A stretch of 64,000 bases of DNA from Cloacibacterium caeni (lineage in GTDB: Bacteria > Bacteroidota > Bacteroidia > Flavobacteriales > Weeksellaceae): assembly GCF_907163125.1 (NCBI RefSeq), contig NZ_OU015319.1, positions 2,418,001 through 2,482,000 of the forward strand, written 5' to 3'. A model generated the notes under the pieces. It searched no databases. It saw only the letters and a list, made by a program, of their open reading frames with translations, and had not been told where the DNA came from. Position numbers and translations under genes: made by a program. Shown here piece by piece: positions 5,683-39,692 of this stretch; position 1 is the stretch's first letter, and each line of letters starts with the position of its first letter.

Positions 5683-5716
5683 AATCGCTTATTTGTAAAG
5701 TCGTTAATCGTATTTC

Positions 5717-5756
5717 TTACAACTTTACAACTTAGCGGTTTTACAACTTTACAACA
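5717..5756 (+). repeat. octad word repeat (TTACAACT) upstream of kdsC
   Basis: Five 8-bp units in register: TTACAACT, TTACAACT, TAGCGGTT, TTACAACT, TTACAACA. It ends 8 nt before the kdsC ATG. Confidence 0.75.
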
Positions 5757-5764
5757 TAGAAAAT

Positions 5765-6283
5765 ATGAGTCATTTAGAAAAATTAAAAAATATAAAAGCC
5801 TTTGTTTTTGATGTAGACGGCGTTTTCACAGACGGTAGCGTTTATCTTTTACCAGAAGGAAATATGTGCAGAGTAATGAATGTTTTAGATGGTTTTGCAG
5901 TGGTAAAAGCATTGAAAAAAGACTATAAAATCTGCGTGATTACCGGTGGAGATGATCCCATGGTTAGTCACAGAATTCATTATTTAGGCATTACTGATTA
6001 TTATTCAAAAGTGCATCATAAATTAGAAAAATTCGAAGAGTTTAAAACCAAATATAATCTTCAAAACGAAGAAATTCTTACGATGGGAGATGATATTCCA
6101 GACATCAAGATGATGAAAGTTTCGGGGATTTCGGCTTGTCCGCCCAATTCTGTGGCAGAAGTAAAAGAAATTTCGAACTATATTTCTCCTATTTACGGTG
6201 GAAAAGGTGCTGTAAGAGACGTGATAGAACAGGTCATGAAAGTGCAAGGAACTTGGATTGACGATGATACGCAGTCTATTTAA
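5765..6283 (+). CDS. kdsC: KdsC-type HAD phosphatase (KDO-8-phosphate phosphatase)
   Basis: 172-residue HAD-superfamily phosphatase of the small uncapped KdsC class, which removes phosphate from 3-deoxy-D-manno-octulosonate 8-phosphate in lipopolysaccharide core synthesis. Motif I is DVDGVFTDG with nucleophile D16 and acid D18; motif II is the Thr in VITGG; motif IV is GDDIPD at residues 108-113. Length is normal. The GT9 gene upstream supports an envelope role. The related YrbI-type sugar phosphatases (for example with N-acylneuraminate) cannot be fully excluded. Confidence 0.87.
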   Translation: MSHLEKLKNIKAFVFDVDGVFTDGSVYLLPEGNMCRVMNVLDGFAVVKALKKDYKICVITGGDDPMVSHRIHYLGITDYYSKVHHKLEKFEEFKTKYNLQNEEILTMGDDIPDIKMMKVSGISACPPNSVAEVKEISNYISPIYGGKGAVRDVIEQVMKVQGTWIDDDTQSI

Positions 6284-6366
6284 GTGGGAGAGTTTGTAGA
6301 ATTGGAGAGTAAAAAGTGAAAACAATTTTCCTGTTTGTATTAAAAGTTGTAAATTATATATCTTTT

Positions 6367-6415
6367 TAAAATCTAAAATCTAAAATCTAAAATCTAAAAT
6401 CTAAAATCTAAAATC
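6367..6415 (+). repeat. perfect heptanucleotide tandem repeat (TAAAATC)x7
   Basis: Seven perfect head-to-tail copies of TAAAATC (49 bp), ending 4 nt before the maf ATG at 6420. The array occupies the position of the leader and ribosome binding site. Confidence 0.95.
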
Positions 6416-6419
6416 GTAA

Positions 6420-6980
6420 ATGAAAATATTACTCGGCTCTAATTCACCCAGAAGAAAAGAACTTTTACAAAGTTTAGGTTTTGATTTTGAGGTGGTTTCT
6501 ATAAATTGTGACGAAGTTTTTCCAGAAAATTTATCCGTAGAAAATATTGCAGGATACCTTTCGGAACTCAAAGCAGATGCATATCAAAATCTCCAAAAAG
6601 ATGACGTTTTACTCACTTCTGACACCATTGTCACCTTTGAAGGAAAAGTTCTCGGAAAGCCTAAAAATAGGGAAGAAGTTGTGGAAATGCTTCAACATTT
6701 GTCAGGGAAAACTCACCAAGTTTACACCGCTGTTTCTTTTAAAACTGATGAAAAAATCATCACTAAAACAGATGTAGCAGATGTAGAATTTTCAGAAATT
6801 ACTGACCAAGAAATCAATTTTTACATCGAAAATTATCATCCATTTGACAAAGCAGGAAGCTACGGAATTCAGGAATGGTTAGGCATGGCAAAAATTTCAA
6901 AAATCAATGGAAGTTTTTACACGATTATGGGATTGCCAACACATTTGGTTTACGAAACTTTAAAAGATTTAGGTTTCTAA
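6420..6980 (+). CDS. maf: Maf family nucleoside triphosphate pyrophosphatase
   Basis: 186-residue house-cleaning pyrophosphatase that hydrolyses non-canonical or excess dTTP/UTP-like nucleotides to monophosphates. The N-terminal MKILLGSNSPRRKELL contains the SxSPRR signature; TSDTIV and the GKPKNREEVVEML/LSGKTHQVYTAV blocks follow, with the catalytic Asp in DTIV. Length is normal. The start codon directly follows a seven-copy TAAAATC array, so copy-number change there could alter expression. Confidence 0.94.
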   Translation: MKILLGSNSPRRKELLQSLGFDFEVVSINCDEVFPENLSVENIAGYLSELKADAYQNLQKDDVLLTSDTIVTFEGKVLGKPKNREEVVEMLQHLSGKTHQVYTAVSFKTDEKIITKTDVADVEFSEITDQEINFYIENYHPFDKAGSYGIQEWLGMAKISKINGSFYTIMGLPTHLVYETLKDLGF

Positions 6981-7057
6981 AAAATTCCTTATTTTTACTG
7001 AATGTTTTTCGCCTCAATCACAATAAATTGTGGCAATTTCAGTTATTAAAACACTCC

Positions 7058-9526
7058 ATGAAAAAATATATACTTCTCGCTTTAGGTTCTGCAGTTTTTT
7101 TGGCTTGTTCGCCAAGAAAAGATGGCTATTTGAACCGTAAATATCAAGGTTTCACCACTTTTTACAATGTTTTGTTCAATGGAGAAGAAGCGCTCAATGC
7201 CGAATTGAAACAGCGAGATAAATCTTATCGAGATAATTTTCATGCGCCTTACATTAAATTACTCACTTACGAAGAACAAATTTCTTCTGCTCAAATGGAA
7301 AATTTAGGCGTTTCTGATAACGAAGAAGGAGTAGCACCAGAAGATTTTTACAGAGATAACATCGAAACTGGAGCTTCTGTTGCCAATACTGGAGTTAGCA
7401 CTTTAGAAATCGCAGAAATGAAGGCTCAAAAAGCCATTGAGAAACATTCGATGATGTTTAAGGGCGAAGAAAAAAACAAAACTATTTTTGATGCTTATCT
7501 TGTTTTAGCAAAAGCAAGATTATTTCAAAATAAGCCTTTAGAAGCACTTGACGCACTGAATACAGTTCAAAAAATTTATAAAAAAGACAAGAGATTTTCT
7601 TTAGCCAAAGTTTACGAAGCCTACACTTACGGAAAAATGAAGGACTATTACCGTGCAGATGAAACCTTCCGTGAACTGAAAGAAAATAAAAAACTCAAAA
7701 AATCTGAGAAAAAATTACTCAGTATTTTCTATTCGGAAATGCTTTTAAACGCTGGTAAAAAAGAAGAAGCAGTAACAGAATTAGAAAGTGCCTATAAACT
7801 CAATAAAAACAAAAAATTAAGAAGCAGAATTGCTTTTCTTCGTGGACAAATCCTTGCCAATCTTGGAAAAAATGAAGAAGCGAGAGAAAGTTTTGTCACC
7901 GCTTATAAAAACGCCAGAAATTTTGAATTTGAAGTAAAATCTCAAGTAGAAATTGCCAAAACTTTCAACGGAAAAGATGATGATTACGAAGGAGCAAAAG
8001 AATATTTGGAAAAAATCAGTAAAAAAGGAACCTATGCTTCTAGAAAAAATGAATTTTATTATGCACTAGGTTTAATGGCAAAAAAAGCGGGTAAAAAGGA
8101 AGAAGCGCAAGAATTTTTCCAGAAATCTATTAAAGAAAAAATATCAGATCCTCAAGTAAGAGGTTTGGCTTACTATGAAATCGGGAAAAAGTTTTTCGAA
8201 GATAATGACTATCTAAGCGCTGGTGTTTATTATGACTCTGCTTATGCTGCGATGAATTATGCCCCTGCAAAAGAAGAACTGAAATCGCTTACCGAAAACA
8301 TAAAAGACATTTCTAAAAATTATTATCTCATCAAAAAGAACGACAGTATTCTGAAACTGACTAAAATGTCTAATGATGAGCGAATTGCCTTTTTCAACAA
8401 ACATATTGAAGGCATAAAAGCCAAAGAAGCTAAGGAAGAACTCGAACGTAAAAAAGCAGAAAAAGAAAGCAAAAATAGAGTAGAAACTGTAGATTTTGCC
8501 TTGCTAGGAAATACAGATAACAACAATTCTTTCTTGGATTTTAATGGAAGTAAAGGCTTCTATTTTGCAAATCAAGCCAATATTTCTAAAGGCGAAAAAG
8601 AATTTAAGCAAATCTGGGGAAATAGAGCGCTTACCGATAATTGGAGAACTTCTACCAAGATGAATTCTATAGAAGATCTTAAAAATGAAGCACTCGGAAT
8701 TACGGCTGCTCCAGATCCTAGAAGATATGAACCGGATTTCTACATTGAAAAAATTCCGACCAAAACAGAAGAAATTTTAGCACTCAAAAAAGACAGAGAT
8801 ACGGCAAGTCTTGGTTTGGGAAGAATGTACGAGAACTTTTTTTCTAATACTTCTTTAGCCACCAAAACATTGTATGATTTGGTAGATTCTAAGACTGATG
8901 AAGAAACAGAATTGCAAGCATTGTATCAAATTTTTTCTATGAATTATGAAAAAAATCCGAGTGCTGCAGAACGTGCGAAACAGTTGATTTTAGAGAAATA
9001 TCCTTACACTTCTTATGCAGAATTTGTGAAAAATCCTAAGAAAGCAGATTTCACCACGTCTGATTCTGAAGTAGAAAAAATCTATACACAAGCTTTTGCT
9101 CTTTACTCCGAAGAAAAATTTGATGATTCTAAAAAATTGATTGAAGAAACTTTACCGAAATATCCAAAAGATGTTTTGGTTCCTAAATTTACCTTGTTGA
9201 ATGCCTTTAACACAGGAAAAACAGCAGGAAAAGAAATCATGATTCTTCAACTAGAGCAATTAATGCTGAATTATGCGAAAACTCCTGAAGGTATAAAAGC
9301 AAAGGAAATGCTTCAATATCTGAAAAGCGATATAAAAGTGGAACAGTTCGATGATAATGGAAATCCTATCTCACCGAAAAATGAACCATCAGTTGCGCCT
9401 CAGAATGTGAATTCTAGCACTACAAATCCTGAAAGAATTCAGCAAAATGATTCTAAACAAAGGAATTTGCAAGAAATGCAACAAGATGATCCGTTGCAAC
9501 CAAAAGATTTAAAACCTAAAAAATAA
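7058..9526 (+). CDS. sprE: PorW/SprE-type TPR lipoprotein (type IX secretion/gliding)
   Basis: 822-residue lipoprotein. An open frame runs upstream into maf, but the ATG at 7058 starts a clean signal peptide with lipobox FLAC (MKKYILLALGSAVFLACSPR), so that start was chosen. It then has the family entry NRKYQGFTTFYNVLFNGEEA, many tetratricopeptide repeats across residues 120-420 and 640-780, and a low-complexity Gln/Pro/Lys tail. In Flavobacterium johnsoniae SprE and Porphyromonas PorW are needed for type IX secretion, where PorW links the PorLM motor to the outer-membrane machinery. Anchoring is probably at the outer membrane. Confidence 0.85.
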   Translation: MKKYILLALGSAVFLACSPRKDGYLNRKYQGFTTFYNVLFNGEEALNAELKQRDKSYRDNFHAPYIKLLTYEEQISSAQMENLGVSDNEEGVAPEDFYRDNIETGASVANTGVSTLEIAEMKAQKAIEKHSMMFKGEEKNKTIFDAYLVLAKARLFQNKPLEALDALNTVQKIYKKDKRFSLAKVYEAYTYGKMKDYYRADETFRELKENKKLKKSEKKLLSIFYSEMLLNAGKKEEAVTELESAYKLNKNKKLRSRIAFLRGQILANLGKNEEARESFVTAYKNARNFEFEVKSQVEIAKTFNGKDDDYEGAKEYLEKISKKGTYASRKNEFYYALGLMAKKAGKKEEAQEFFQKSIKEKISDPQVRGLAYYEIGKKFFEDNDYLSAGVYYDSAYAAMNYAPAKEELKSLTENIKDISKNYYLIKKNDSILKLTKMSNDERIAFFNKHIEGIKAKEAKEELERKKAEKESKNRVETVDFALLGNTDNNNSFLDFNGSKGFYFANQANISKGEKEFKQIWGNRALTDNWRTSTKMNSIEDLKNEALGITAAPDPRRYEPDFYIEKIPTKTEEILALKKDRDTASLGLGRMYENFFSNTSLATKTLYDLVDSKTDEETELQALYQIFSMNYEKNPSAAERAKQLILEKYPYTSYAEFVKNPKKADFTTSDSEVEKIYTQAFALYSEEKFDDSKKLIEETLPKYPKDVLVPKFTLLNAFNTGKTAGKEIMILQLEQLMLNYAKTPEGIKAKEMLQYLKSDIKVEQFDDNGNPISPKNEPSVAPQNVNSSTTNPERIQQNDSKQRNLQEMQQDDPLQPKDLKPKK

Positions 9527-9567
9527 GCAGTTTTCTCAACTCCAAGTTTAAATTTTCTACACTCTTT

Positions 9568-9640
9568 AATAGAGTGAGCAAAGTTTTTTTGCTTTGGCGA
9601 ATGAAAAAGCAAACGCTTAAAAGGCGAATTTATTCGCTTC
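9568..9640. other. cluster of overlapping hairpins downstream of sprE
   Basis: CACTCT/AGAGTG, AGCAAA/TTTGCT, TTTGCTT/AAGCAAA and GCGAA/TTCGC (9624-9637) follow one another closely. It may serve as a terminator between the convergent sprE and tsaB genes. Confidence 0.4.
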
Positions 9641-9710
9641 TTTGCTATCTTAATTTTATACCAATTTTTAAGAAATCTTTGCGTGATAAATAGGAAGGAT
9701 TGAAGAAAGA

Positions 9711-10382
9711 TTAAGATTTCTTCTTTACCCCGTGGAAATCTTTTAAATAAAACGGCTCGAAATACGCCACGTCTTCAAAATCTTGTCGGTTGAAATTCTC
9801 CACGGATTTTTTGATGAGATATTTCGCAGATGGATACACATTTTCATTAAAATCTGCTCCCGAAATTTGTAAAATCTCTTGCGATTTTTTGGCTCCATCT
9901 CCTACGAAAAGGATTTTTTTGCCTTCTAATTCTTTGAAAGATTGTTCATCTAAGATTTTTGCTTCTGTCTCCGTCAACATTTCTCCTGAATTTCCATCAA
10001 AAACGGCGCAATAAACCTCCATTCTTCTCGCATCGATTAATGGAATGATTACATCATAGTTTTGACCTAAAAACGGCTCTATCATCGTTTCTAGAGAATT
10101 GACAGCAATGAGAGGAACTTTCAAACCATAACAAAAACCTTTTGCCGAAGCTGCGCCAATTCTAAGTCCAGTGTAAGAACCTGGACCTTTTCCGAGGGAA
10201 ACTGCTTCAATGTCTTTCAAAGAAATTTCTGCGCCTTCTAAAGTCCATTCTACAAAAGTGTGTAGCGATTCTGACTGTTTATAGTTTTCTGAAACTTCTT
10301 CGCAAAGACATAATAATTCTTCGCCATCAGAAATGGCAACTGAACAGTTTTTAGACGAGGTTTCTATATGGAGGATTTTCAT
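9711..10382 (-). CDS. tsaB: tRNA threonylcarbamoyladenosine biosynthesis protein TsaB
   Basis: 223-residue non-catalytic partner of TsaD in making the t6A modification at position 37 of ANN-decoding tRNAs. The N-terminus MKILHIETSSKNCSVAIS is the ASKHA-fold entry, and KGPGSYTGLRIGAASAKGF is the family signature. The frame is open 16 codons upstream, but the ATG at 10382 matches the family start and lies downstream of a promoter box. The C-terminal half is diverged, as usual for TsaB. Confidence 0.92.
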   Translation of the reverse strand: MKILHIETSSKNCSVAISDGEELLCLCEEVSENYKQSESLHTFVEWTLEGAEISLKDIEAVSLGKGPGSYTGLRIGAASAKGFCYGLKVPLIAVNSLETMIEPFLGQNYDVIIPLIDARRMEVYCAVFDGNSGEMLTETEAKILDEQSFKELEGKKILFVGDGAKKSQEILQISGADFNENVYPSAKYLIKKSVENFNRQDFEDVAYFEPFYLKDFHGVKKKS

Positions 10383-10387
10383 TTTTT

Positions 10388-10474
10388 GATGTGGTAATTT
10401 GAAAATGTGATGATGTGATAATTTTTGCAAAGATAATCAACGAATCATCACATTAACAAATCAACAAATTATTT
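10388..10474. repeat. octad word repeat forming an imperfect inverted repeat
   Basis: The left arm repeats TGATGTGA/TAATTTTT words with an 8-bp period (GATGTGGTAATTT at 10388 and GATGTGATAATTT at 10412). The right arm repeats AATCAACA words (10435 and 10459, again 24 bp apart). AATGTGATGAT (10404-10414) and ATCATCACATT (10444-10454) are exact reverse complements; the tsaB promoter box lies between them. Confidence 0.65.
10428..10435 (-). promoter_or_regulatory. -7 promoter box of tsaB (TATCTTTG)
   Basis: TATCTTTG on the minus strand, 45 nt before the tsaB ATG, in the loop of the inverted repeat described above. Confidence 0.5.
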
Positions 10475-11218
10475 ACGGTGAATCGTTCTCGGTTCTGCTT
10501 GTGCTTTTGGATAAATGCATAATTCTGCAATAGAAACTCTTTCTGGTGCATTTACACAATACGAAATCGCATCTGCAATATCTTCTGCTTTCAGTGCTTC
10601 ATAACCCGCGTAAACTGTTGCAGCACGTTGTTCATCTCCTTTGAATCTTACTTTAGAAAAATCAGTTTCTACAGCACCTGGTTGAATATTAGTGACTTTG
10701 ATTCCAAATTCTGTAAGCTCTAAACGCATTCCTTCGGAAATAACGTCTACAGCGCGTTTTGATGCACAATACACCACACCATTTGCATACGTTTGTCTCG
10801 CAGCAACCGAAGAAATATTGATGATATGACCTGTATTTCTTGCTTTCATGATTTTAATAATCGGTTGAGAAACGTAGAGCAATCCTTTTACATTTCCGTC
10901 CATCATCGCATCCCAATCTGCAATATTTCCTTCGGATATCGATTCTAAACCATGAGCATTACCTGCATTATTGACTAAAACATCTATGTTTTTCCATTCT
11001 TCTGGAAGTGAATGGATGGCATTTTCTACTTCTTCTTGGTTTCTTACATCAAAAACCAAACTGTACACTTCTGTAATATTGCTTAATTCGATTTGTAATT
11101 GCTCTAAAACTTCTTTTCTACGACCACAAATGATCAATCTATGACCTTGTTTAGCAAAAGTTTCTGCGGTAGCTTTTCCAATTCCTGAAGTCGCTCCGGT
11201 GATGAATATTGTTTTCAT
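10469..11218 (-). CDS. SDR family NAD(P)-dependent oxidoreductase (YdfG-like)
   Basis: 249-residue short-chain dehydrogenase. It has TGATSGIG cofactor loop, GRR after strand 2 (suggesting NADP), NNAGN, the catalytic Ser in NISSV and the YCASK Tyr/Lys pair, followed by IQPGAVETDF. It most resembles YdfG-type serine/3-hydroxy-acid dehydrogenases; the natural substrate is not known. The frame extends 10 codons upstream, but the ATG at 11218 starts MKTIFITGATSG directly. Confidence 0.9.
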   Translation of the reverse strand: MKTIFITGATSGIGKATAETFAKQGHRLIICGRRKEVLEQLQIELSNITEVYSLVFDVRNQEEVENAIHSLPEEWKNIDVLVNNAGNAHGLESISEGNIADWDAMMDGNVKGLLYVSQPIIKIMKARNTGHIINISSVAARQTYANGVVYCASKRAVDVISEGMRLELTEFGIKVTNIQPGAVETDFSKVRFKGDEQRAATVYAGYEALKAEDIADAISYCVNAPERVSIAELCIYPKAQAEPRTIHRK

Positions 11219-11311
11219 TTTAATATTTTTTTCTCGTGGATTTAGCAAATTATGCTGATTTTATTATTAATTTTAAAAAAATTTCTGCATAATCAGCACA
11301 GAATGCGAGAG

Positions 11312-11683
11312 TTAATTCGCATCAAATGCTTCAAAAGCATCTTCTAAGTGTGAAATTTTAAGTTTTCCTGTTTCGTCTGGAAGGACAGAAATAATATCAA
11401 ACCTCACTTCTTTGTCTATATTTAGAGATTTTAGGTATTCGTCTGTGGCAGAAACGATGGATTTAATTTTCTTTTTGGTCACCGCTTCATGAGGTTCCAT
11501 GAAAATATCTGTTCCTCTCGCTTTTACTTCTATCACTACTATTTTCCCATCAAATTCTGTAATGATATCTACTTCTGCTTTTTGAAAACGAAAGTTTTTG
11601 GCCAAGATTTTATAGTTTTTTTCGACTAAAAATTGCTCTGCCAATTCTTCTGCGAGTTTGCCAAAATCATTGTGTTCTGCCAT
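11312..11683 (-). CDS. YraN family protein (UPF0102)
   Basis: 123-residue protein with the Holliday-junction-resolvase-like endonuclease fold of UPF0102. The motif set GKLAEELAEQFL, EVDIITEFDGKIVVIEVKAR (Glu/Asp and ExK core of a PD-(D/E)xK site) and RFDIISV are visible. Cellular role is not established. The ATG at 11683 (MAEHNDFGK) fits the family better than the upstream in-frame codon, which lies in repeat DNA. Confidence 0.9.
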   Translation of the reverse strand: MAEHNDFGKLAEELAEQFLVEKNYKILAKNFRFQKAEVDIITEFDGKIVVIEVKARGTDIFMEPHEAVTKKKIKSIVSATDEYLKSLNIDKEVRFDIISVLPDETGKLKISHLEDAFEAFDAN

Positions 11684-11713
11684 AATATTTAAACACAGAG
11701 AGCTCCGAGTTTT

Positions 11714-11731
11714 CACTGTGAACACTGTGAA
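11714..11731 (+). repeat. tandem 9-mer CACTGTGAA x2
   Basis: Two perfect adjacent copies of CACTGTGAA in the gap upstream of yraN, next to related words such as CACAGAG and CTCTGTT on either side. Confidence 0.7.
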
Positions 11732-11750
11732 TTCTCTGTTTCAGTGTGGT

Positions 11751-12683
11751 TTATAAAATTTTTACTAATCCTTTTTCCTCAACTTCCATCTTTACCTTAC
11801 TTCCTATAATTAAAGGTCTGTTATCAAAAATATGTCCATTTGGAAAACCAAAAAGAGTAGGGAAGTTGTATTTTTTTATTCTTTGAGCAATGATTTCATA
11901 GGCAAATTCATCGAAAGGTTCATCATAGTTTTTATTTTCTTTTGCATCGCCCATATTGGTCATTCCGCCGATGATTAAACCTTTTATTTTTCTGAAAACG
12001 CCTGCCAAATCTAGACTCATCAACATTCTGTCAAGCGCATAAAAATTCTCGCCAATGTCTTCTATAAAAAGAATTTTATCTTTGAAATCAAATGAATATG
12101 GCGTTCCTAAAAGGGCATAAATCAAAGCTAAATTTCCACCAATGAGCACTCCTTCAGTTTTTCCGTTTTTATTAAGTTGATGTTTTTCTACGGAATATTG
12201 AATTTTTTTTCCTTCTAAAATTTTGAAAATATCTTCATAGCTTCCTTCAGAAACCCCGAAACTAGCTGTTTTAACGGTTTGTCCGTGAATAGAAGCGAAA
12301 TTATTTTTCAATAAATAACTGTTAATGACTGTATTATCAGAATAACCAATATACCATTTCGGATTTTCTCTAAATTCTGAAAGTTTGAGATATCTCAATA
12401 AATGCTGACAACCGTAACCACCTCTGGAAGCCCAAATTGCTGAAATTTCTGGGTTATTTAAAGCCCAATTTAAATCCTGAATCCTTTCTTTTTCGGTTCC
12501 TGAATAATTGTAACCTTTTTCAAATTTTCCTAAAGTATTTTTACCAAGAATAGTTTTGTAACCTTTTGATTTTATCAAATTGATGGTGCTCTGAAGCGAT
12601 GCTTCTTCCACAAATCCTGCAGGAGAAATAATGGCTATTTGGTCACCTTTTTTTAGATTTTTAGGAAAAATAATATTTTTCAT
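11751..12683 (-). CDS. ldcA: LD-carboxypeptidase (peptidase S66 family)
   Basis: 310-residue enzyme that removes the terminal D-Ala from muropeptide tetrapeptides during peptidoglycan recycling. It has IISPAGFV at the N-terminus, ASRGGYGCQHLL, the nucleophile S115 in WYIGYSDNT, and the later Glu and His elements (NGHIFDNRPL near the C-terminus). There is no signal peptide, consistent with a cytoplasmic recycling enzyme. Its start overlaps the stop of the upstream LysE gene by 4 nt, indicating coupling. Confidence 0.9.
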   Translation of the reverse strand: MKNIIFPKNLKKGDQIAIISPAGFVEEASLQSTINLIKSKGYKTILGKNTLGKFEKGYNYSGTEKERIQDLNWALNNPEISAIWASRGGYGCQHLLRYLKLSEFRENPKWYIGYSDNTVINSYLLKNNFASIHGQTVKTASFGVSEGSYEDIFKILEGKKIQYSVEKHQLNKNGKTEGVLIGGNLALIYALLGTPYSFDFKDKILFIEDIGENFYALDRMLMSLDLAGVFRKIKGLIIGGMTNMGDAKENKNYDEPFDEFAYEIIAQRIKKYNFPTLFGFPNGHIFDNRPLIIGSKVKMEVEEKGLVKIL

Positions 12684-13366
12684 TTTGCTTTTTGGTAGAG
12701 GATTTCTTTGCTTTCTGCTTCTTCTAAACGCTTATCAAACTGATTGAATTTTTTATAACTCTGCAGAAAGATGAAAAAACTAAAAATAATAAGAATAATT
12801 CCTACGGTTTTTCTGATTTTATTGGCTAAATTTTGGGTCAATTTATAGTGAAATTGCTTGGCTAACAATATTTTGAATAAATCTATCACAAGATAAGTCG
12901 CAATCACTAAACTGATGTAGAGTAAGAAATTCTGCAAATCTGGATATTCATTTCTCACCGAAATTACCGTAACTAACCAAAATAAAATAACCCCTACATT
13001 CAAAATATTGAACAAGAAACCATTTACAAAGGTTTTGAAATAATTTTGACTGATGATTTTATTCTCATTAGCAACGTGCATTTGAGTTTTGGTAAGCATC
13101 ATAAAAATTCCGTAAACCAAAATAATAAGCGCTGTAATTCTGTAAAATCCTGGATGTTTGTCTATAAGTTCTACCAAGTCTGCGCTGGCAAAATAAGCAG
13201 CTACAATACACAAAATATCTGCAGTAATCACGCCTAAATCTAATGCCAATGCATGACGATGACCTCTACAAAAACTAGTCTCAATCAATAAAAAGAATAT
13301 TGGTCCTATGAAAACAAGACTCAACATAAATCCTAATCCGATTGCCGAAAGTATAAGTTCAAGCAT
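12680..13366 (-). CDS. LysE/RhtB family exporter
   Basis: 228-residue inner-membrane protein with six predicted helices. The first helix FMLSLVFIGPIFFLLIETS contains the Pro of the LysE signature; C-terminal residues form a charged tail. Members export amino acids; here the substrate is unknown. Translationally coupled to ldcA, so it may export products linked to peptidoglycan turnover (inference). Its ATG lies 4 nt after a TACCTTTG promoter box. Confidence 0.85.
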   Translation of the reverse strand: MLELILSAIGLGFMLSLVFIGPIFFLLIETSFCRGHRHALALDLGVITADILCIVAAYFASADLVELIDKHPGFYRITALIILVYGIFMMLTKTQMHVANENKIISQNYFKTFVNGFLFNILNVGVILFWLVTVISVRNEYPDLQNFLLYISLVIATYLVIDLFKILLAKQFHYKLTQNLANKIRKTVGIILIIFSFFIFLQSYKKFNQFDKRLEEAESKEILYQKAK

Positions 13367-13370
13367 TTAA

Positions 13371-13378
13371 CAAAGGTA
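13371..13378 (-). promoter_or_regulatory. promoter box abutting the LysE gene (TACCTTTG)
   Basis: TACCTTTG on the minus strand ends 4 nt before the ATG at 13366. Third case in this window with exactly this geometry. Confidence 0.5.
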
Positions 13379-13477
13379 AGAAATAAGTATTTAAAGATTA
13401 ATATTTTTTAAAACTTTGCTTGTTGTTTAAACTAAAATCTTACAAATTTTAAAGTTACTTCTTAGCGATGAATAGCA

Positions 13478-15625
13478 TTAATCTACCACTTTAAAATCTA
13501 ATTGTTTAGCCACCAAATTCGCTTTCACAACTTTAATTTTTATAGTGTCTCCCAATTGATAGGTTTTACCTGTTCTCATTCCTACAATAGAATGTGTTTT
13601 TGGTTCGTGGAAGTAAGAATCATCCATTAAATCGCGCAATTTAATTAAACCTTCTGCTCCGTTTTCTGGAATTTCTACCCAGAATCCGAAGTCTGCAGTT
13701 CCAGAAATCACCCCTTCGAAAACTTCTCCTACATGTTTTTCCATGAATTTTACTTGCATGAATTTAATAGAATCTCTTTCTGCATCTGATGCGAGACGTT
13801 CCATATCGCTGCAATGTTTGCAATATTCTTCGTATTCTGCAGCAAAAGGAGATTTACCACCATCTAAATAGTGTTGTAACAAACGGTGCGCGATTAAATC
13901 TGGATATCTACGAATAGGAGAGGTAAAGTGCGAGTAATATTCGAATCCTAAACCGTAATGTCCAATAGGATTGGTAGAATAAACTGCTTTACTCATGCTT
14001 CGCATGGCAAGAGTTTCAATCATGTTTTCTTCGCCTTTTCCTTTTACATCTCGCAATAAATTATTGAGAGATTCTGCTACTTTTTTAGAATTAGCAAGGT
14101 TCATTTTATAACCAAAAGTTCCTACGAATTCTCGCAATGCTTCTAATTTTGTAGGATTAGGATCATCGTGAACTCTATACACAAAAGTATTTCCCGTAGT
14201 TTCACCTTTTCTGTTTAATGAAACAAATTCAGATACTTTTCTATTGGCTAAAAGCATGAATTCTTCAATCAAATGATTAGAATCTTTGCTGATTTTAAAA
14301 TAAACACCAATTGGCTCATTATTTTCGTCTAAATTGAATCTTACTTCACTTCTATCAAACGTAATTGCTCCATTTTTAATTCTATTTTTTCTTAGAATTT
14401 TAGCGAGTTTATCTAATACCAGTATTTCTTCTGCCAATTCGCCTGATTTTGTTTCAATTCGTTCTTGCGCTTCTTCATAGGTAAATCTTCTGTCTGAATG
14501 AATAACCGTTCTTCCGAACCATTGATTTTGAACTTCAGCTTTGTCATTGAGTTCAAAAACTGCTGAAAATGTGAATTTATCTTCATTGGGACGAAGCGAA
14601 CAAACATCATTACTCAAAACCTCAGGAAGCATAGGAACAACTCTGTCTACCAAATACACAGAAGTGGCTCTGTTATACGCTTCATCATCTAAAATAGTTC
14701 CCGGTCTTACGTAATGCGAAACATCTGCAATGTGAACACCAATTTCCCAGTTTCCATTTTCTAATTTCTGTAAAGAAAGAGCATCATCAAAATCTTTTGC
14801 ATCTTTTGGGTCAATGGTAAATGTGAGAATTTTACGCATATCTCTGCGTTTTTTCACTTCTGCAGCGGTAATTTTTCTATCAATTTTATCTGCTTCAGCT
14901 TCTACTTCTGGTGGAAATTCATAAGGTAAACCATATTCCGCGAGAATAGAGTGGATTTCAGTTTCATGTTCTCCAGGAAGTCCCAAAACTTGGATAATTT
15001 CGCCTTCTGGATTTTTAGAATTCGCATCCCAATTCAGCATTTTTACTACTACTTTTTCGCCATCTTTAGCGCCGTTTATTTTATTTTTCGGGATAAAGAA
15101 GTCGTTGTTGATTTGTTTTTTGTCAATGACTACAAATCCAAAATCTTTATGCGGAACGAACTGAAAAGTTCCTACAAAAGTATCATTTGCACGTTCTAGA
15201 ACTTCTAAAACAGAACCTTCTAGTTTTTTACCTTTAAAATGATAAGTTACGATAAGAACAGTGTCTCCTTGCAATGCATCTTTTACATTTTTTTGATGAA
15301 TAAAAACATCATCTTCTACTCCTTCTACTTTTACATACGCATTTCCATTGGCTGCAAAATCGATAACTCCTGTTAACGTATCGGTAATTTGAAGGTTTAC
15401 AATATATTTATTCTTCTCCGTTTCCTTAATTTTATCTTCGGCTTTCAATTTATGAAGTGCCTGAATAACGAGTTCTCTTTGTCTAGGATTTTTATATTCT
15501 ATTCCGTCTGCAATCTGTTTGTAATTGTAGATTTTAGACGCTTTTTTATTCATAAAACGCAGAATGAGCTTCCCAATATCGCGAAGTTTCTGGTCTTGTT
15601 TTTGTGATTTATGTTGTTGTTTCAT
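13478..15625 (-). CDS. rnr: ribonuclease R
   Basis: 715-residue 3'-5' exoribonuclease of the RNase II/RNB family, degrading structured RNA. Domains in order: an N-terminal winged-helix region, two cold-shock OB folds (residues 80-230), the RNB catalytic domain with FTIDPKDAKDFDDALS carrying the metal-binding aspartates, and a C-terminal S1 domain (VFEGVISGTADFGFWVE). Length is standard for Bacteroidetes RNase R. The basic N-terminus is short and the usual long Lys-rich tail is absent. Confidence 0.95.
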   Translation of the reverse strand: MKQQHKSQKQDQKLRDIGKLILRFMNKKASKIYNYKQIADGIEYKNPRQRELVIQALHKLKAEDKIKETEKNKYIVNLQITDTLTGVIDFAANGNAYVKVEGVEDDVFIHQKNVKDALQGDTVLIVTYHFKGKKLEGSVLEVLERANDTFVGTFQFVPHKDFGFVVIDKKQINNDFFIPKNKINGAKDGEKVVVKMLNWDANSKNPEGEIIQVLGLPGEHETEIHSILAEYGLPYEFPPEVEAEADKIDRKITAAEVKKRRDMRKILTFTIDPKDAKDFDDALSLQKLENGNWEIGVHIADVSHYVRPGTILDDEAYNRATSVYLVDRVVPMLPEVLSNDVCSLRPNEDKFTFSAVFELNDKAEVQNQWFGRTVIHSDRRFTYEEAQERIETKSGELAEEILVLDKLAKILRKNRIKNGAITFDRSEVRFNLDENNEPIGVYFKISKDSNHLIEEFMLLANRKVSEFVSLNRKGETTGNTFVYRVHDDPNPTKLEALREFVGTFGYKMNLANSKKVAESLNNLLRDVKGKGEENMIETLAMRSMSKAVYSTNPIGHYGLGFEYYSHFTSPIRRYPDLIAHRLLQHYLDGGKSPFAAEYEEYCKHCSDMERLASDAERDSIKFMQVKFMEKHVGEVFEGVISGTADFGFWVEIPENGAEGLIKLRDLMDDSYFHEPKTHSIVGMRTGKTYQLGDTIKIKVVKANLVAKQLDFKVVD

Positions 15626-15757
15626 TTTTTTAAATTGTTATTTTGAATAATTCTAAATAAATGGTTTTTTGTTTTTATTTTATTGTATATCAGTAATATA
15701 TATTTTATTATTTTTCAAACTTGTCTAAATATATATCTAAAAGATGACTAAACTTAT

Positions 15758-17425
15758 CTAATCTTTTTTGATTTCCCAAGTTGCATACTCTCTACTTACT
15801 ATTTTACCCTCTTTTCCTAATGCAAAAAGAAAGTTTCTAATTTTATCTTTTTTCTGTTTCTTTGATAATACTTCTGAAAGCTTTGGAATAACTAAATTAT
15901 CAATCTCGCTTCTTTTTACTTTTTCAGATTTTGCTATATATTCTAAAATTAACTTTTTATAATAATCATTATCAAAACTTTTATTCCTTACATACTCTGC
16001 AAGTAATTCTTTGTTCCCCGTTTTTTTAATCAAATCATGAGATAAGAAAATTCCATTTCTTCTTCCTTCAATGAATTTTTTGCTCCTTAAATATTTAAGT
16101 TCATCTAAAGAAAGTTGTACTTGTTTTTGAACTTTATCAAGAAGGATTATATCTTCTAAAGTAATTTCAGGATTATTAATTAAAATTTTAGCAAACTCTT
16201 CATTAATAACCTTTCCTGTAATAGTGACTTTTACTTTATTTTCAGAAAGATTATACTCTGGCAAAGGAAAAAATCTTTGTTTTTGGAAATTAAAAACTTT
16301 GCGTATTCCTCCTCCTTGAGTTTCAATCATACCAAGATTTCTCATTGCTTCCACAAGAAAAGGATTTCTATAATTTTCTTCAGGAGAATCGTGTAAAACT
16401 ACATCTTCAACTGATTTTGGGATAAATCTTCCATAATTAGTAAATACCAAATGATCATCTTCAAATTCTATAACATTAATTCGAGATTTTTCAGAATAAT
16501 CTTGATGAGCTATAGCATTATTTAGAGGCTCTCTAATTACAAAAGGATCATATCTTAATACTTCATCAGGAAAAAGTGTCCCTTCTTTTAAATATCTGTA
16601 TTTAAGATTTCTTATTTTTTTATAAACTTCATCTACAGAAAGAATAAAAGGAATGTGGAATATCTCAAAATCTTTATCCTGATTATCAATTGTTTTAAGA
16701 TTCCATCTTATTTTAACTGCTGAATCTAAAAAATGTTCTTCTTCTTGTTTACCTAATAGAATAAAGCAAGCACGAGTAATTTTCCCTCTTATAGTAAGTA
16801 TAGCCTTATTTAGAAATTTAGCATTATCCCAACTCTCAATTTCTTCAGAATATTTAGGATTTCTTTTTACAAACTCTATTCTAGCTTTTTTTATTGCTTC
16901 TTCATCTAAATCATTTATTGTAGCATCTTCAATAATTACTTTAGTCCAATCTTCTTTATTAAAATTCTCATTTAAAATAGTATCAAGTCTTTCATTAGTC
17001 ATTCTCACCAAAGAATCGCCTATTCTTTGCCAAGCTTTCTTATGTGCATAAACTGGCAAGCGAAAAGAATGTTTAGGTACTTTTACAATCCAAACTATTT
17101 TTTTTGTATCAGAAGTAATATATTCACTTATTTCTAAATTTTCCGAAGAAAGGTTTATACAATTTTTTACAAGAGTAAGTTTAATATTTTCACTATTATA
17201 GCTATGTAAATTTTGTATTCCTACAATTTCAAATGTCTTATCCTCTATTCCTATTACAATATGTCCTCCTTCCATATTAGAAAAAGCAGAAACATAAGAA
17301 ACCAAATCGTCGCCTTCACTTCCATTAATAGAATTTTTTAAGTTCTTATATTCTTTCCAATCACAATTTTCATTTTCTTTTGGAAAATTCTCTTTCAAAA
17401 AGGATTTTAACTCTAATTCGGTCAT
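15758..17425 (-). CDS. AlbA_2/Schlafen-type ATP-binding protein
   Basis: 555 residues. The N-terminus (about 1-140) is an AlbA_2/Schlafen domain: CDWKEYKN, then SAFSNMEGGHIVIGIEDKT. The middle region has a GHKL-like ATPase_c_4 block with REPLNNAIAHQDYS and NYGRFIPKSVEDVV, followed by winged-helix segments. Such proteins are annotated as RecG-like or transcriptional regulators and often occur in accessory or defence islands; the actual role is unknown. It sits between housekeeping genes rnr and rpiB and is noticeably AT-rich, which suggests a late insertion. Confidence 0.8.
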   Translation of the reverse strand: MTELELKSFLKENFPKENENCDWKEYKNLKNSINGSEGDDLVSYVSAFSNMEGGHIVIGIEDKTFEIVGIQNLHSYNSENIKLTLVKNCINLSSENLEISEYITSDTKKIVWIVKVPKHSFRLPVYAHKKAWQRIGDSLVRMTNERLDTILNENFNKEDWTKVIIEDATINDLDEEAIKKARIEFVKRNPKYSEEIESWDNAKFLNKAILTIRGKITRACFILLGKQEEEHFLDSAVKIRWNLKTIDNQDKDFEIFHIPFILSVDEVYKKIRNLKYRYLKEGTLFPDEVLRYDPFVIREPLNNAIAHQDYSEKSRINVIEFEDDHLVFTNYGRFIPKSVEDVVLHDSPEENYRNPFLVEAMRNLGMIETQGGGIRKVFNFQKQRFFPLPEYNLSENKVKVTITGKVINEEFAKILINNPEITLEDIILLDKVQKQVQLSLDELKYLRSKKFIEGRRNGIFLSHDLIKKTGNKELLAEYVRNKSFDNDYYKKLILEYIAKSEKVKRSEIDNLVIPKLSEVLSKKQKKDKIRNFLFALGKEGKIVSREYATWEIKKD

Positions 17426-34641: not shown

Positions 34642-35685
34642 CTATTCGTTTCCAAAGACTTCGTTATGCTGTTCTTGCACTCTGATAAAGGTGGTTCTTT
34701 TCGATAATTCCTTGAGTTGAGAAGCGCCAACATACGTACAAGTAGAGCGTACTCCGCCTAAAATATCTTTCACCGTTTCCGCAACTGGTCCTTTGTATTT
34801 TACCTTTACGGTTTTCCCTTCAGAAGCGCGATATTCTGCAACGCCGCCACTGTGTTTTTCCATGGCAGTTTTAGAACTCATTCCGTAGAACAATCTGAAT
34901 TTTTTGCCGTTTTCTTCTACCATTTCACCGCCACTTTCGTCGTGACCAGCAAACATTCCGCCTAGCATTACGAAATCTGCGCCTCCACCAAATGCTTTGG
35001 CTACATCTCCCGGAACTTTGCAACCACCATCACCAATGATGTGTCCACCCAAACCATGCGCTGCATCTGCACATTCTATAATTGCCGAAAGTTGAGGATA
35101 ACCCACTCCAGTTTTTACTCGGGTAGTACACACAGAACCTGGCCCAATTCCTACTTTTATAATATCTGCACCAGCTAAAATGAGTTCTTCTACCATTTCG
35201 CCAGTCACCACATTTCCTGCGATGATGGTTTTATCTGGAAAATCTGCGCGAACTTTTTTCACAAAATTCACAAAATGTTCAGAATAACCATTGGCTACAT
35301 CGATGCAGATGAAATTGATCTTCGGAAATTTACTGATGATTTCTTTAATTTTTTCTTCGTCACTGCTTCCAGTTCCAGAGCTGATGGCGATATATTGATA
35401 AATGCTTTCTGGAGAATTTTCTAGAAATGCCGACCATTCTTCTAGCGTGTAATGCTTATGAATGGCAGTAATGATTTTTTCTTCTGCAAGAGCCGTTACC
35501 ATTTCAAAAGTTCCTACCGTATCCATATTGGCAGCGATAATGGGAACACCACGCCAAGTTTTTTTAGAATTTCTAAAGATAAATTCCCTTTCTAGACTTA
35601 CTTGTGAACGAGATTTAAGAGTAGAACGTTTTGGGCGAAACATCACGTCTTTGAAGCCCAATTTTATATCATATTCTATGCGCAT
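34642..35685 (-). CDS. guaC: GMP reductase
   Basis: 347-residue NADPH-dependent enzyme converting GMP to IMP in purine salvage. The N-terminus [20 protein letters not shown] is GuaC-specific, the catalytic Cys is in GPGSVCTTR, and the phosphate-binding GDGGCK and [14 protein letters not shown] blocks are present. Length equals the E. coli enzyme. No CBS domains, which separates it from IMP dehydrogenase. Borders the accessory island to its right. Confidence 0.96.
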
Positions 35686-35721: not shown

Positions 35722-36021
35722 TTAAACATTTAAATGAGAATCTACATCCATTTGTTGATGCAAGATTCGTATGATTTCTATATCGTTATTTTTGAGATTA
35801 ATTCTGTAAAAAATAAAATGGGATTTTACACGAGAGCGAAAATAACCTTTTCTAACTTCCCCGAAATCTTGTCCGAATTTAGGATTTTCTGCAAGATATT
35901 CTATTTCATTCATTATTAAATCAAAATAGTAATCTGCTTGTTCTATAGACCAATTTTCTAGTGTATAAAGCCAAATATTTTCTAAATCTTTTTCGGCTTC
36001 TATGCTAATTTTGTAATTCAT
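35722..36021 (-). CDS. parE: RelE/ParE family toxin
   Basis: 99-residue type II toxin. The N-terminal MNYKISIEAEKDLENIWLYT helix-hairpin, FGEVRKGYFRSRVKSHFIFY and the C-terminal IEIIRILHQQMD strand are typical of ParE toxins, which poison DNA gyrase; RelE-like mRNA cleavage is less likely with this C-terminus. It follows its antitoxin by 2 nt. Confidence 0.9.
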   Translation of the reverse strand: MNYKISIEAEKDLENIWLYTLENWSIEQADYYFDLIMNEIEYLAENPKFGQDFGEVRKGYFRSRVKSHFIFYRINLKNNDIEIIRILHQQMDVDSHLNV

Positions 36022-36023
36022 TA

Positions 36024-36269
36024 CTATTCAGCATGTTTTTTGTGAAGCTTTTCTTTAAAAGAATCTCGATTAAAATCTTTTGAAAAGCCAGATTTTTCTC
36101 CTTTTTTTAGTTCGTTAATTAATAATGTTTTTTGAGATTCTTGATGTTCAAAAACCCTTAAAGCTGTTCTAATTAATTCACTAGCAGAAGAAAATTTACC
36201 AGACTTAATTTGTTCTGAAATGAAATTCTCAAAATATTCTCCGAGCAAAATAGAAGTATTTTTTGCCAT
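36024..36269 (-). CDS. parD: ParD-like ribbon-helix-helix antitoxin
   Basis: 81 residues. The first 45 residues (KNTSILLGEYFENFISEQIK, then SASELIRTALRVFE) form an RHH/CopG DNA-binding domain; the Lys/Phe-rich C-terminus should wrap the toxin. The gene precedes parE by 2 nt. An operator-like inverted repeat overlaps its promoter, supporting autoregulation by the ParDE complex. Confidence 0.9.
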   Translation of the reverse strand: MAKNTSILLGEYFENFISEQIKSGKFSSASELIRTALRVFEHQESQKTLLINELKKGEKSGFSKDFNRDSFKEKLHKKHAE

Positions 36270-36314: not shown

Positions 36315-36390
36315 TAAAAAATCCGCTTTTTTGCGGATTTTAGAGTTTATGTTTTATTGTAGTCTCGGTTTTGTAATCCGAGACATCGGG
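36315..36390. repeat. 75-bp hairpin repeat, left copy
   Basis: AAAATCCGC/GCGGATTTT hairpin (36318-36341) followed by AGAGTTT and a GTCTCGG/CCGAGAC hairpin (36362-36384). A related copy in the same orientation lies at 37604-37677; the two bracket the lipoprotein cassette. The first hairpin also serves as terminator of that cassette. Confidence 0.75.
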
Positions 36391-36441
36391 TTTTATATAG
36401 GTCTAATATAGGGTAATATTATCTTTATATATTCTTAATAA

Positions 36442-36627
36442 TTATAAAATAGTAGACAATTTACTTACTATAATATAAATTCCAATAGTAAATAAAAAGA
36501 TACGATAGTTTTTGTCATAAAGTGATAACTTTTTTTTCTTTTTATAGTAAGAAATTGTCTCTTTTGCTAACGAATATAAACCTAGCAAGCAAATAAAAAT
36601 TACTAATAAATTAAATATCGTTTCCAT
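36442..36627 (-). CDS. small two-TM membrane protein of the lipoprotein cassette
   Basis: 61 residues with two predicted membrane helices (about 5-22 and 43-60) around a Lys/Tyr-rich loop. No family recognised. It begins 10 nt after the lipoprotein stop on the same strand, and the pair share a terminator hairpin. Size and topology would suit an immunity-type partner, but that is only a hypothesis. Confidence 0.55.
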   Translation of the reverse strand: METIFNLLVIFICLLGLYSLAKETISYYKKKKKLSLYDKNYRIFLFTIGIYIIVSKLSTIL

Positions 36628-36637
36628 AATTATTTAT

Positions 36638-37369
36638 TTAACCCCACATACAATATGAAAAGTCTGCAACTGCAATTACTGCACCAACATATCCTAGAAA
36701 CCTTGTTGCAACTTTTCCAACAGCAGCTATTAACATTCTTTTTGTTGCAAATTTGCCATACCAACCATCATATAAAGATTGTATACCTGTTGCCTCAAGA
36801 AAGCATTCACCAACAGAGCGACTTACATTTAAATTAGAAGAATAACCATCATAAGTAGGGATACCTAATTTTTGTTCCATCTCAATTACAATATTAGCAG
36901 CATGAATATAATTGGGGCTGTCAGCAGACCATTCATCAGAAAAATCTAATTGGTGAGAAAGTAAATAGTTTTTGGCAGATTCGATAGATTCTGAAAGTTC
37001 ATTTTTAGCTTCGGCTTCTTCAAGACTATTAGCAGCATAAACTATTTCTCCATCCGCCAACAAAACATCATCATATGGGTCACCAACATATTCTCCTGTT
37101 AAATAATAAGTAAATTCATCTGCGGGCATTAATTGTTCAAATGAGTTTCCATCTATACGATAGGTCATACCATTTTTTAAGCTTAACTTCTTTCTTACTT
37201 TCTCTAAAGATTTCAAATACTTATCTTTATATAAAGATTTGTCTTTTTCTTTAAAAATTTTCTGATTTGTCTTGGATACCGTTAAAGAACTCGTATCACT
37301 AATTGAAACAGAGTCTCTTGAACAAGATACAAGTAATAAAATAAATGCATACAATAGTAAATTTTTCAT
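36638..37369 (-). CDS. hypothetical lipoprotein with hydrophobic Gly-rich C-terminus
   Basis: 243 residues. Signal peptide with lipobox LVSC, so Cys16 would be lipidated. The middle is hydrophilic and mostly helical (residues 40-180). The last 32 residues (212-243) are hydrophobic and spaced with Gly at 218, 226 and 229, like a membrane-inserting glycine-zipper helix; C189 and C240 could form a disulfide. Not assigned to any family. It lies in the island between parDE and the second TraB-like gene, bracketed by direct repeats. A lipoprotein toxin or bacteriocin-like role is possible but unproven. Confidence 0.65.
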   Translation of the reverse strand: MKNLLLYAFILLLVSCSRDSVSISDTSSLTVSKTNQKIFKEKDKSLYKDKYLKSLEKVRKKLSLKNGMTYRIDGNSFEQLMPADEFTYYLTGEYVGDPYDDVLLADGEIVYAANSLEEAEAKNELSESIESAKNYLLSHQLDFSDEWSADSPNYIHAANIVIEMEQKLGIPTYDGYSSNLNVSRSVGECFLEATGIQSLYDGWYGKFATKRMLIAAVGKVATRFLGYVGAVIAVADFSYCMWG

Positions 37370-37902
37370 AAATTTTATTTTTAATGTTTATTATTACAAA
37401 TATAAAATGTCATTTTTAATTATGCAAATATTCAAAAAAAATAAAAAATTATTTTGTTTTATATAGAATCGTTGATAATATTGTAATTGAGGCGTAGTCA
37501 GTCAAATAAAATTTTTCGAGATTCGAAGGAAACACGAACAAACCACGAGTAAACACGAAGGAAAACTCCTATTTCACTCCTAGAAAACTCAAAGAATTTC
37601 CCATAAAAAAATCCGCAAAAAGCGGATTTTAGAGTTTGTTTTTATTATAGTCACGGATTACAAATCTGAGATATCGGCACCAAGTTATTTTCCTAAGACA
37701 GGAAGTGCTTTGCTTTTGTAAAAACAGTCTTTTTAGACTTCAATAACTCAATTTTAAGCCTTCTAAAAATTAGAATTCTACACCTGAACTAAAATAAAAC
37801 CTCGCTTAAAAGTACTTAAACGAGGTTGAAATTTTATGTTTTTGAAAGCTATTTTCTAAAAAAAAGGAGTTGTGCAACAGTTACCGATGTTAGTAGAGGT
37901 TT
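37370..37902. other. 533-bp intergenic region upstream of the cassette
   Basis: No gene seen. It contains iterated words around 37524-37567 (CACGA at 37533, 37544 and 37554, with GAAGGAAA at both ends), the right copy of the hairpin repeat (37604-37677), and an AACCTCG/CGAGGTT hairpin at 37798-37827 beyond the TraB-like gene. Confidence 0.55.
37604..37677. repeat. 75-bp hairpin repeat, right copy
   Basis: AAAATCCGC/GCGGATTTT hairpin (37608-37630), then AGAGTTT, TTTATTATAGTC and a degenerate CGG...GATATCGG tail, colinear with the left copy at 36315-36390. Confidence 0.75.
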
Positions 37903-38736
37903 TTATTTTAGTTCAATTGGTGATACAGAATATCCTCTATTTTTTAGTAGTTCCAATAATCCATCTTTAAAATCTAAATGATAAAGTCCAACGAAAATGA
38001 ATATATTTTTATTTTCTTGAATTGATTTGTCTATAGTATTAATCCAATCTTTATTTCTTATTGTTAGCATTTTTTGTTGACTTTCTTTTGAAAAATTAAA
38101 ATTGTGTTTTTTAGTTCTATATTCCTGTAAAATTGCGCAATTAATATTTTGTTCTTTAGAATTTAATGTTTGAATTTTATCTTCAAGTATTTTTAAAAGT
38201 TTGTTCTCATCGTAATCTTTATAAATATTGCTATTTAGGTAGTCGAAGGTTTTTGATGTAGATTCTAACCCAAGTAACTGAATTTTATTTTTTATTGAAT
38301 ACTCTTTCAAATAATCATCTAGTTTAATTGAATCAAGTTTTTCTTTTTCTGACAAACAAAATTTTGAAGTAATTTTTCCATCAATAGTTACAATAAGTTC
38401 TTTTATTGTCATTTTATTCCAATCAACATATTTTGGAACTATTTTTTTTATAGTTTGAAATTCTTTTTCATTCAATTTTTTCAGAACTAAATTTTGATTT
38501 CTTTGATTTATAAACGCTTTGGCAGAATCAATATTCTCGGAATAAGCAACCTTACTATTTTTAAGAGCATTGAAAATAATTTCATCATCTTTAAAAAAAT
38601 CCTTTCCTAAATAATGATAAGTTCCCAATATATAACTATCGTTACCATTTTTTGATATTTTCCAAAAAATTGACTTTTGAGACAATAAAAATGAAGAAAT
38701 TAGTAAGAATGTTAAAATGAAATGTCTTTTTACCAT
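37903..38736 (-). CDS. TraB/GumN family protein (paralogue B)
   Basis: 277 residues, gap-free alignable with the protein at 2454-3287 and clearly more than half identical. Signal peptide up to about residue 19 (LLISSFLLSQ), GTYH at 38-41 and GLYHLDF at 250-256. The ATG at 38736 was chosen over one nine codons upstream because it gives the same signal-peptide length as paralogue A. It is on the other strand and at the edge of the accessory island. Putative periplasmic TraB/Tiki-like metalloprotease; substrate unknown. Confidence 0.82.
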   Translation of the reverse strand: MVKRHFILTFLLISSFLLSQKSIFWKISKNGNDSYILGTYHYLGKDFFKDDEIIFNALKNSKVAYSENIDSAKAFINQRNQNLVLKKLNEKEFQTIKKIVPKYVDWNKMTIKELIVTIDGKITSKFCLSEKEKLDSIKLDDYLKEYSIKNKIQLLGLESTSKTFDYLNSNIYKDYDENKLLKILEDKIQTLNSKEQNINCAILQEYRTKKHNFNFSKESQQKMLTIRNKDWINTIDKSIQENKNIFIFVGLYHLDFKDGLLELLKNRGYSVSPIELK

Positions 38737-38764
38737 AATATTGTTTAAAATTTCTGCTAACACT

Positions 38765-38924: not shown

Positions 38925-39692
38925 TTAAGAATTCAAAACCTCTCCCAATTCCTGTAAATATTCGTGGGCAGTTAAATCAAATTTCACGGGAACTACAGAG
39001 ATGTAACCATCGGCAAGTGCGTTTTCATCGGCATCTTTTCCTTCGTCTTGGTTGTTAAAATAACCTGTGAGCCAATAGTATTTTTTACCATGAGGATTTA
39101 CACGTTCATCAAAGCTTTCTTCCCATTTTGCTTGGGCTTGCCTGCAAACTTTGATGCCTTTTATTTCTTCTTTTTTCAGTTTCGGGATGTTTACATTTAG
39201 CACAATTCCTTTTGGCAATGGATTTTCTAAAACTTTTTTTACGATATTTTGAATATAGTCTTTGCATTGTGAGAAATCTGCATCCCACGCAAAATCCAGC
39301 AGAGAAAATCCTATAGACTGTAAACCTTCTACACCTGCTTCTACTGCGGCAGACATGGTACCAGAATAAATGACATTAATCGAAGAATTGGCACCGTGAT
39401 TAATTCCCGAAACCACTAAATCTGGTTTTCTGGTCAAGACTTTATCTAGAGCAAATTTTACACAATCTACAGGAGTTCCGCTCAGTGAATAATCACGCTG
39501 AGGTCCTTCTAAATTGATTTCTTCGAAAGTAAGGGTAGAATTGATGGTAATGGCATGTCCTTTTCCAGATTGTGGAGAATTGGGTGCTACAACCACAACT
39601 TCGCCTATTTCGTTCATAAAGTTTACCAGATTTCTAATTCCTGGTGCGGTAATTCCGTCATCATTGGTAACTAATATCAAAGGTTTTTTCAT
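38925..39692 (-). CDS. surE: 5'/3'-nucleotidase SurE
   Basis: 255-residue metal-dependent nucleotidase acting on nucleoside monophosphates. VTNDDGITAPG holds the two metal-binding Asp, NSPQSGKGHAIT and SGTPVDCV the conserved loops, and VSGINHGAN the Asn ligand; the SGTMSAAVEG segment is also present. Length is normal. Survival-protein role in stationary phase is known from E. coli. Confidence 0.95.
   Translation of the reverse strand: MKKPLILVTNDDGITAPGIRNLVNFMNEIGEVVVVAPNSPQSGKGHAITINSTLTFEEINLEGPQRDYSLSGTPVDCVKFALDKVLTRKPDLVVSGINHGANSSINVIYSGTMSAAVEAGVEGLQSIGFSLLDFAWDADFSQCKDYIQNIVKKVLENPLPKGIVLNVNIPKLKKEEIKGIKVCRQAQAKWEESFDERVNPHGKKYYWLTGYFNNQDEGKDADENALADGYISVVPVKFDLTAHEYLQELGEVLNS

Follow-up and report, generated by a model that had tools for sequence, protein, structure and literature searches.

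The two leftward genes between positions 36315 and 37677 of the window, a stretch of 64,000 nucleotides of Cloacibacterium caeni (G000:C1:2418001-2482000, within a single 2.98-Mb contig), probably constitute a bacteriocin-immunity operon, in which a surface lipoprotein with a membrane-active C-terminal module would be the toxin and a transmembrane (TM) protein would confer immunity, the pair being exchanged at a hotspot. The probability of this reading is put at roughly 0.6; killing, immunity and membrane activity of the pair are what we infer from its genes.

The first gene (36638..37369, minus strand) specifies a lipoprotein of 243 aa, the proposed bacteriocin precursor, with a signal peptide and the lipobox LLVSC16. 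The second (36442..36627, minus strand), recognized as an ORF and by TM prediction, starts 10 bp past the lipoprotein gene and specifies the proposed immunity protein, of 61 aa, with two TM segments and no lipobox. Both ORFs are as claimed in an earlier, sequence-only reading of this DNA, and C189, C240 and the Gly-spaced hydrophobic lipoprotein C-terminus match its description. The C-terminal module, residues 189-243 with C189 to C240 (36641..36805, minus strand), was delimited by profile searches and alignments across Bacteroidota. A candidate Bacteroidetes-type promoter, TTTG-N20-TATATTTG (37397..37428, minus strand), lies 28 bp upstream of the lipoprotein ATG; with 5 occurrences of the pattern in the window against 3.3 expected, the match is weak alone and right in position. 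On the 3' side of the two genes is an intrinsic terminator hairpin with a T-rich tail (36318..36341, minus strand), which is the first half of the left repeat described below. The lipoprotein and TM genes form a self-contained leftward operon of ~1.1 kb with its own promoter match and terminator. The cassette contains no transposase gene and has no linked gene for a dedicated exporter, a protease or a thiol oxidoreductase. Assignment of the 61-aa protein to DUF6007 (PF19470) was rejected, the match (18.5 bits, E 0.0019) falling below the Pfam gathering cut-off of 26.7 bits.

Used as a single query, the lipoprotein matches only itself, its counterpart in C. normanense IMET F (G005) and, weakly and at the C-terminus, a protein of G007, which is also a lipoprotein followed by a small membrane protein. 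A scan of genome contigs with the window protein likewise found C. normanense IMET F only. With profiles of the C-terminus, built in rounds from two, then 8 and 14 sequences, homologues were found in no fewer than eight Bacteroidota families, the lowest E-value being 5e-29. The distribution is patchy, with members in 6 of 320 genomes in the family (about 2%) and, with weak matches set aside, in ~12 of 395 in the phylum sample (about 3%). The lipidated C16, C189, G195, G226, F237 and C240 are invariant in the 13 full-length proteins aligned, and A193 is nearly so; the middle region is 16-28% identical among aligned members. Some members have a non-ATG start or a truncation (L147, L155, L161; L148), and L149 and L165 are fragments. 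The N-terminal matches of the first family search (L128-L140) were discarded as signal-peptide/lipobox noise, the adjoining ORFs being unrelated lipoproteins, and a profile built on the full-length protein contributed no new member while picking up many lipoproteins falsely through their N-termini. Against Pfam and NCBIfam all matches of the members were below cut-off; PHROG, PADLOC and PDB contained no family covering the lipoprotein; and TBLASTN with two family members found nothing in plasmid and phage records. No part of the C-terminal alignment was sufficiently conserved to serve as a query against viral contigs. Paper searches, in open-access papers and libraries that are not exhaustive, returned no description of the family. 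Judged from these searches it is apparently a phylum-wide, undescribed lipoprotein family.

What accompanies the lipoprotein throughout is a small TM gene. In all 17 members examined, such an ORF, of 49-154 aa as called, comes immediately after the lipoprotein gene in the same orientation and begins no more than about 60 bp from its stop codon; when the same test was applied to the 36 window ORFs of at least 200 aa, only the lipoprotein itself passed. The other gene neighbours of the pair vary by genome, with no further common neighbours seen. A lipobox lipoprotein whose C-terminus is hydrophobic, helical and bounded by Cys, together with a small TM protein as its obligatory partner, makes up a toxin-immunity layout. 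The partners are themselves variable. L145 contains a diverged second copy (62% identical over 34 aa), the two related small TM genes, at 205-402 and 1287-1475, lying near one lipoprotein, a possible case of an orphan immunity gene. L160 has two separate partners, each corresponding to one half of a single fused partner of 154 aa in L161. With duplicated (L145) and fused (L161) forms, the partner genes vary as immunity genes do. The most similar toxins, those of L155, L159 and L204, also have the most similar partners. Family-wide co-variation of toxin and partner found no support, since the correlation (r 0.49) falls to 0.07 once this tight cluster is cut to one member by leaving out two; L148 had been entered in the wrong frame and the test was computed with and without it.

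In G005 the lipoprotein gene is disrupted by two in-frame stop codons and two frameshifts, and the partner gene is intact, with one silent change and a protein sequence identical to that of G000, the window genome. This would be a toxin lost and an immunity kept, the distribution of the disabling mutations (0 of 4 in the shorter partner gene) being non-significant by itself.

Structure prediction of a 66-aa C-terminal segment (mean pLDDT 65) gave, with moderate confidence, three helices at residues 3-17, 33-47 and 50-65; the full-length lipoprotein, predicted alone, was modelled poorly, at a pLDDT of 52. A fold search with the C-terminal model returned nothing better than E 4 and no known toxin fold. 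The PDB profile search brought up designed helical proteins, none of them with a single stretch that passed, and these were set aside.

On the proposed mechanism, the product of the first gene would be exported by Sec and anchored as a lipoprotein in the outer membrane, probably on the outer face. Its last ~55 residues, with a disulfide between C189 and C240 probably closing them, would form a small amphipathic or hydrophobic helical module which, released or presented, probably via proteolysis, would target the cytoplasmic membrane of competing Bacteroidota. In the inner membrane of the producer the two-TM protein would block the module. The pair would be swapped as a unit at a defence and competition hotspot, by homologous recombination between copies of a terminator-plus-REP element. 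The sequence-only reading had mentioned a membrane-active effector with a membrane partner as one possibility, and the phylum-wide two-gene architecture strengthens this suggestion.

Three described groups of Bacteroidota toxins were compared. BcpT of Phocaeicola vulgatus (499 aa, with C270, C412 and C479) is a predicted surface lipoprotein toxin activated by proteolysis, and the immunity gene just downstream specifies BcpI, a 57-aa lipoprotein (PMC9308784). The cassette resembles this system in its predicted surface lipoprotein precursor, putatively active C-terminal part, very small gene directly downstream and mobile carriage. It differs in that the precursor has 243 aa with a ~55-aa two-Cys module, and in that its partner is a two-TM protein without a lipobox whereas BcpI is itself a lipoprotein. 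The cassette family thus appears comparable to BcpT/BcpI in layout while, set apart by description, belonging to a different family. In Bacteroides fragilis, Fab1 is a ~50 kDa protoxin from which fragipain frees a 28-kDa active C-terminal fragment; its immunity gene RFab1 lies directly downstream, orphan immunity genes and horizontal acquisition are known, and the system is rare outside B. fragilis (PMC8406203). Compared by description, the logic is similar, but size and distribution differ. Bacteroidetocins, which are likewise Bacteroidetes peptide toxins with paired cysteines, are made with a double-glycine leader of 15-16 aa and mature to a four-Cys peptide of 42 aa, alongside an ABC peptidase-transporter and a thiol oxidoreductase and without an immunity protein (PMC6671954). 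Classification of the cassette as a bacteroidetocin fails on the leader (a lipobox signal), on the Cys count (two in the ~55-aa module) and on the linked genes, the ABC peptidase-transporter and thiol oxidoreductase being absent from the cassette and neighbouring genes.

The cassette lies between two conserved genes recognized by sequence matches, a GMP reductase/IMPDH-type gene (34642..35685, minus strand), which we take to be guaC, and a 5'-nucleotidase SurE-type gene (38925..39692, minus strand), presumably surE. Within the genus this site is variable. The sister species G001, G002 and G006 have a single element and no cassette, that is, an empty site; G005 has element, cassette and element; in G000 the cassette stands between a truncated element on its left and a full one on its right; and G003 has neither element nor cassette between guaC and surE. 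To the right of the right-hand element of G000 the sequence continues exactly as it does beside the single element of G002 and G006, and the right-end remnant of a DDE (DUF772) insertion sequence found there (GAGTTGTGCAAC inverted repeat; 37681..37884, plus strand) is common to G002 and G006 at the same site. The cassette had been suggested to be mobile or exchangeable, and exchange is supported by the site being empty in G001, G002 and G006 and occupied in G000 and G005; rather than being held at the same locus across the genus without variation, the cassette is absent from guaC-surE in those three genomes.

Between G000 and G005 the lipoprotein gene shows 98.6% identity, with 10 substitutions over 730 bp and, in G005, two further deletions of one base each, and the conserved flanking regions are less alike, at 94.8% and 95.6%. 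That the cassette is more alike than its flanks points to transfer between lineages. G000 and G005 share diagnostic variants in the left part of the right-hand element, and these set it apart from the resident elements; the cassette hence seems to travel with part of an element. Cargo at this site in the other genomes, and beside the cassette in G005, comprises a Type IIG restriction-methyltransferase and Mrr-type restriction (G001), a methyltransferase and an HTH gene (G002), a PIN gene (G005), an esterase (G006) and a large membrane protein (G003).

The direct hairpin repeats that had been reported to bracket the cassette are real (36315-36390 and 37600-37677; 82% over 57 bp, E about 1e-9 to 1e-10), with the correction that the right copy belongs to a longer element of ~160 bp and that the left copy has lost sequence on its outer side. 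Each repeat consists of a terminator hairpin (AATCCGC...GCGGATT) joined to a REP palindrome of the TAGTCACGGATTACAAATCCG type. The AATCCGC-n-GCGGATT hairpin occurs at 2 sites in the window, both in the repeats, against 0 expected by chance. Repeat comparison located the palindrome of the left repeat (GTAGTCTCGG...CCGAGACATCGG) at 36362..36390 (plus strand), and genus comparison defined the full ~160-bp composite element at 37517..37680 (plus strand), made up of CGAAGGAAACACGAACAAACC..., the terminator hairpin at 37608-37630 and the REP at 37649-37675. Related copies of the composite element exist elsewhere in 6 of the 7 genus genomes; those examined adjoin variable genes, restriction and insertion-sequence genes among them. 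Since all cargo at the site is transcribed leftwards, the element places a terminator 3' of each cargo unit. A role for GTTTGTTCGTG of the element as a DNA-uptake word was dropped, since 3 Mb contain only 12 copies of it.

The REP half is dispersed through the genome. In L003, on the same chromosome, ORF 1617-2189 is a Y1_Tnp gene (PF01797, 7e-10) with inverted REP copies on both sides; as inverted REPs flank this IS200-like gene, the REP half belongs to a REP-associated transposase system. The match to these inverted REPs is the likeness to REP/RAYT systems; the difference is that the REP is here fused to a terminator hairpin and ~90 bp of further sequence, a composite that marks cargo boundaries. 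At the same locus (L003 1501-3039, G000:C1 ~1350907-1351714), the left REP of the transposase gene interrupts a transporter-like ORF. From the empty sites it would appear that exchange is driven by the repeats, and homologous recombination would be a simpler route than a transposase for moving the cassette.

Other explanations of the pair were considered against this evidence. An outer-membrane lipoprotein and its inner-membrane partner might serve a non-antibacterial envelope function, such as superinfection exclusion or envelope-stress sensing, which would give a reason for retention in a defence hotspot. A lipoprotein and a small TM partner could indeed work within their own cell, and the sister hotspot cargo includes restriction-modification genes. 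We nevertheless regard such a function as rather unlikely: PADLOC, PHROGs, phage and plasmid records gave no match, the Cys-bounded hydrophobic module and the diverse, duplicated TM partners better suit toxin and immunity, and the broken lipoprotein beside an intact partner in G005 fits poorly if both are needed. Mixed and partly non-defensive cargo, such as the G006 esterase and the G003 large membrane protein, would be expected if the two were ordinary accessory genes, for a lipoprotein and a membrane protein with unrelated functions, hitch-hiking in a recombination hotspot. This is an unlikely account, however, of a pair that is found with the same order and the same module in at least eight families and shares no other neighbours seen.

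Overexpression of small TM proteins that have a charged loop often proves toxic, which counts in favour of reversed roles, the two-TM protein being a membrane-depolarising toxin neutralised by the lipoprotein or its C-terminus. The constraint, however, sits in the lipoprotein C-terminus while the partners are diverse in length and sequence, and an intact TM gene beside a dead lipoprotein, as in G005, would then be lethal or costly; reversal is accordingly considered highly improbable. The reading of the lipoprotein as toxin and of its partner as immunity protein is favoured by the patchy distribution, the restriction and PIN cargo of sister genomes, the three-helix model of the module and the precedent of BcpT.

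So far, only a small number of antibacterial proteins are described from Bacteroidota outside the gut. If the toxin-immunity reading is true, the lipobox, the C-terminal signature C..xA.G...LGpiG...F..C and an adjoining small TM gene would identify a new toxin-immunity family, reaching soil, water and host-associated Bacteroidota, and the site would be a concrete case of single-operon weapons swapped at a chromosomal position that otherwise holds restriction systems. More broadly, and tentatively, at somewhat less than even odds, there may exist across the phylum lipoprotein-anchored bacteriocins with a disulfide-closed helical killing module of ~55 residues and their own TM immunity proteins, carried as single-operon cassettes that are recombined via terminator-plus-REP elements at defence hotspots.

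A site beside a WYL-type regulator gene (L091, L093 and L096, in G006 and G000) has the same composite element with cargo that differs by genome (a DNA methyltransferase, an insertion sequence and other genes), and may be another hotspot.

The genes surrounding the cassette in the window were also as previously read. To the left are a ParD antitoxin gene (36024..36269, minus strand; ParD_antitoxin 2.5e-25) and a ParE toxin gene (35722..36021, minus strand; ParE_toxin 1.1e-16), and to the right is a neighbouring cargo gene of the TraB/PrgY/gumN family (37903..38763, minus strand; Pfam 1.7e-29). The reported duplication of the latter was borne out by a second copy at 2442-3275 which is 66% identical to it. 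This TraB-like gene has decayed matching ends of 5 bases (37869-38757), and at the same locus in G002 and G006 (L053 and L054) the surE-adjacent cargo has the same kind of matching ends, of 10 and 8 bases. An attC-like slot therefore seems to adjoin the repeat-flanked slot within the hotspot. Elsewhere in the window genome, L124 (G000:C1:1626000-1645900, reverse complement ~3600-16460) contains an array of eight cassette-like units, each with a short DDE insertion-sequence remnant. The units start with GTT+NNN... and most end in the reverse complement followed by a GGTTCGGCGGATTTGCGAAGTCCCGAG hairpin; the ends match over 8-10 bases in five of the eight, differing from unit to unit, and the matched bases total 57, where shuffling gives 35 (a total this high arose in 6 of 10000 shuffles). 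By its sequence the array resembles the attC-type arrays of integrons, with no integrase gene adjoining it.
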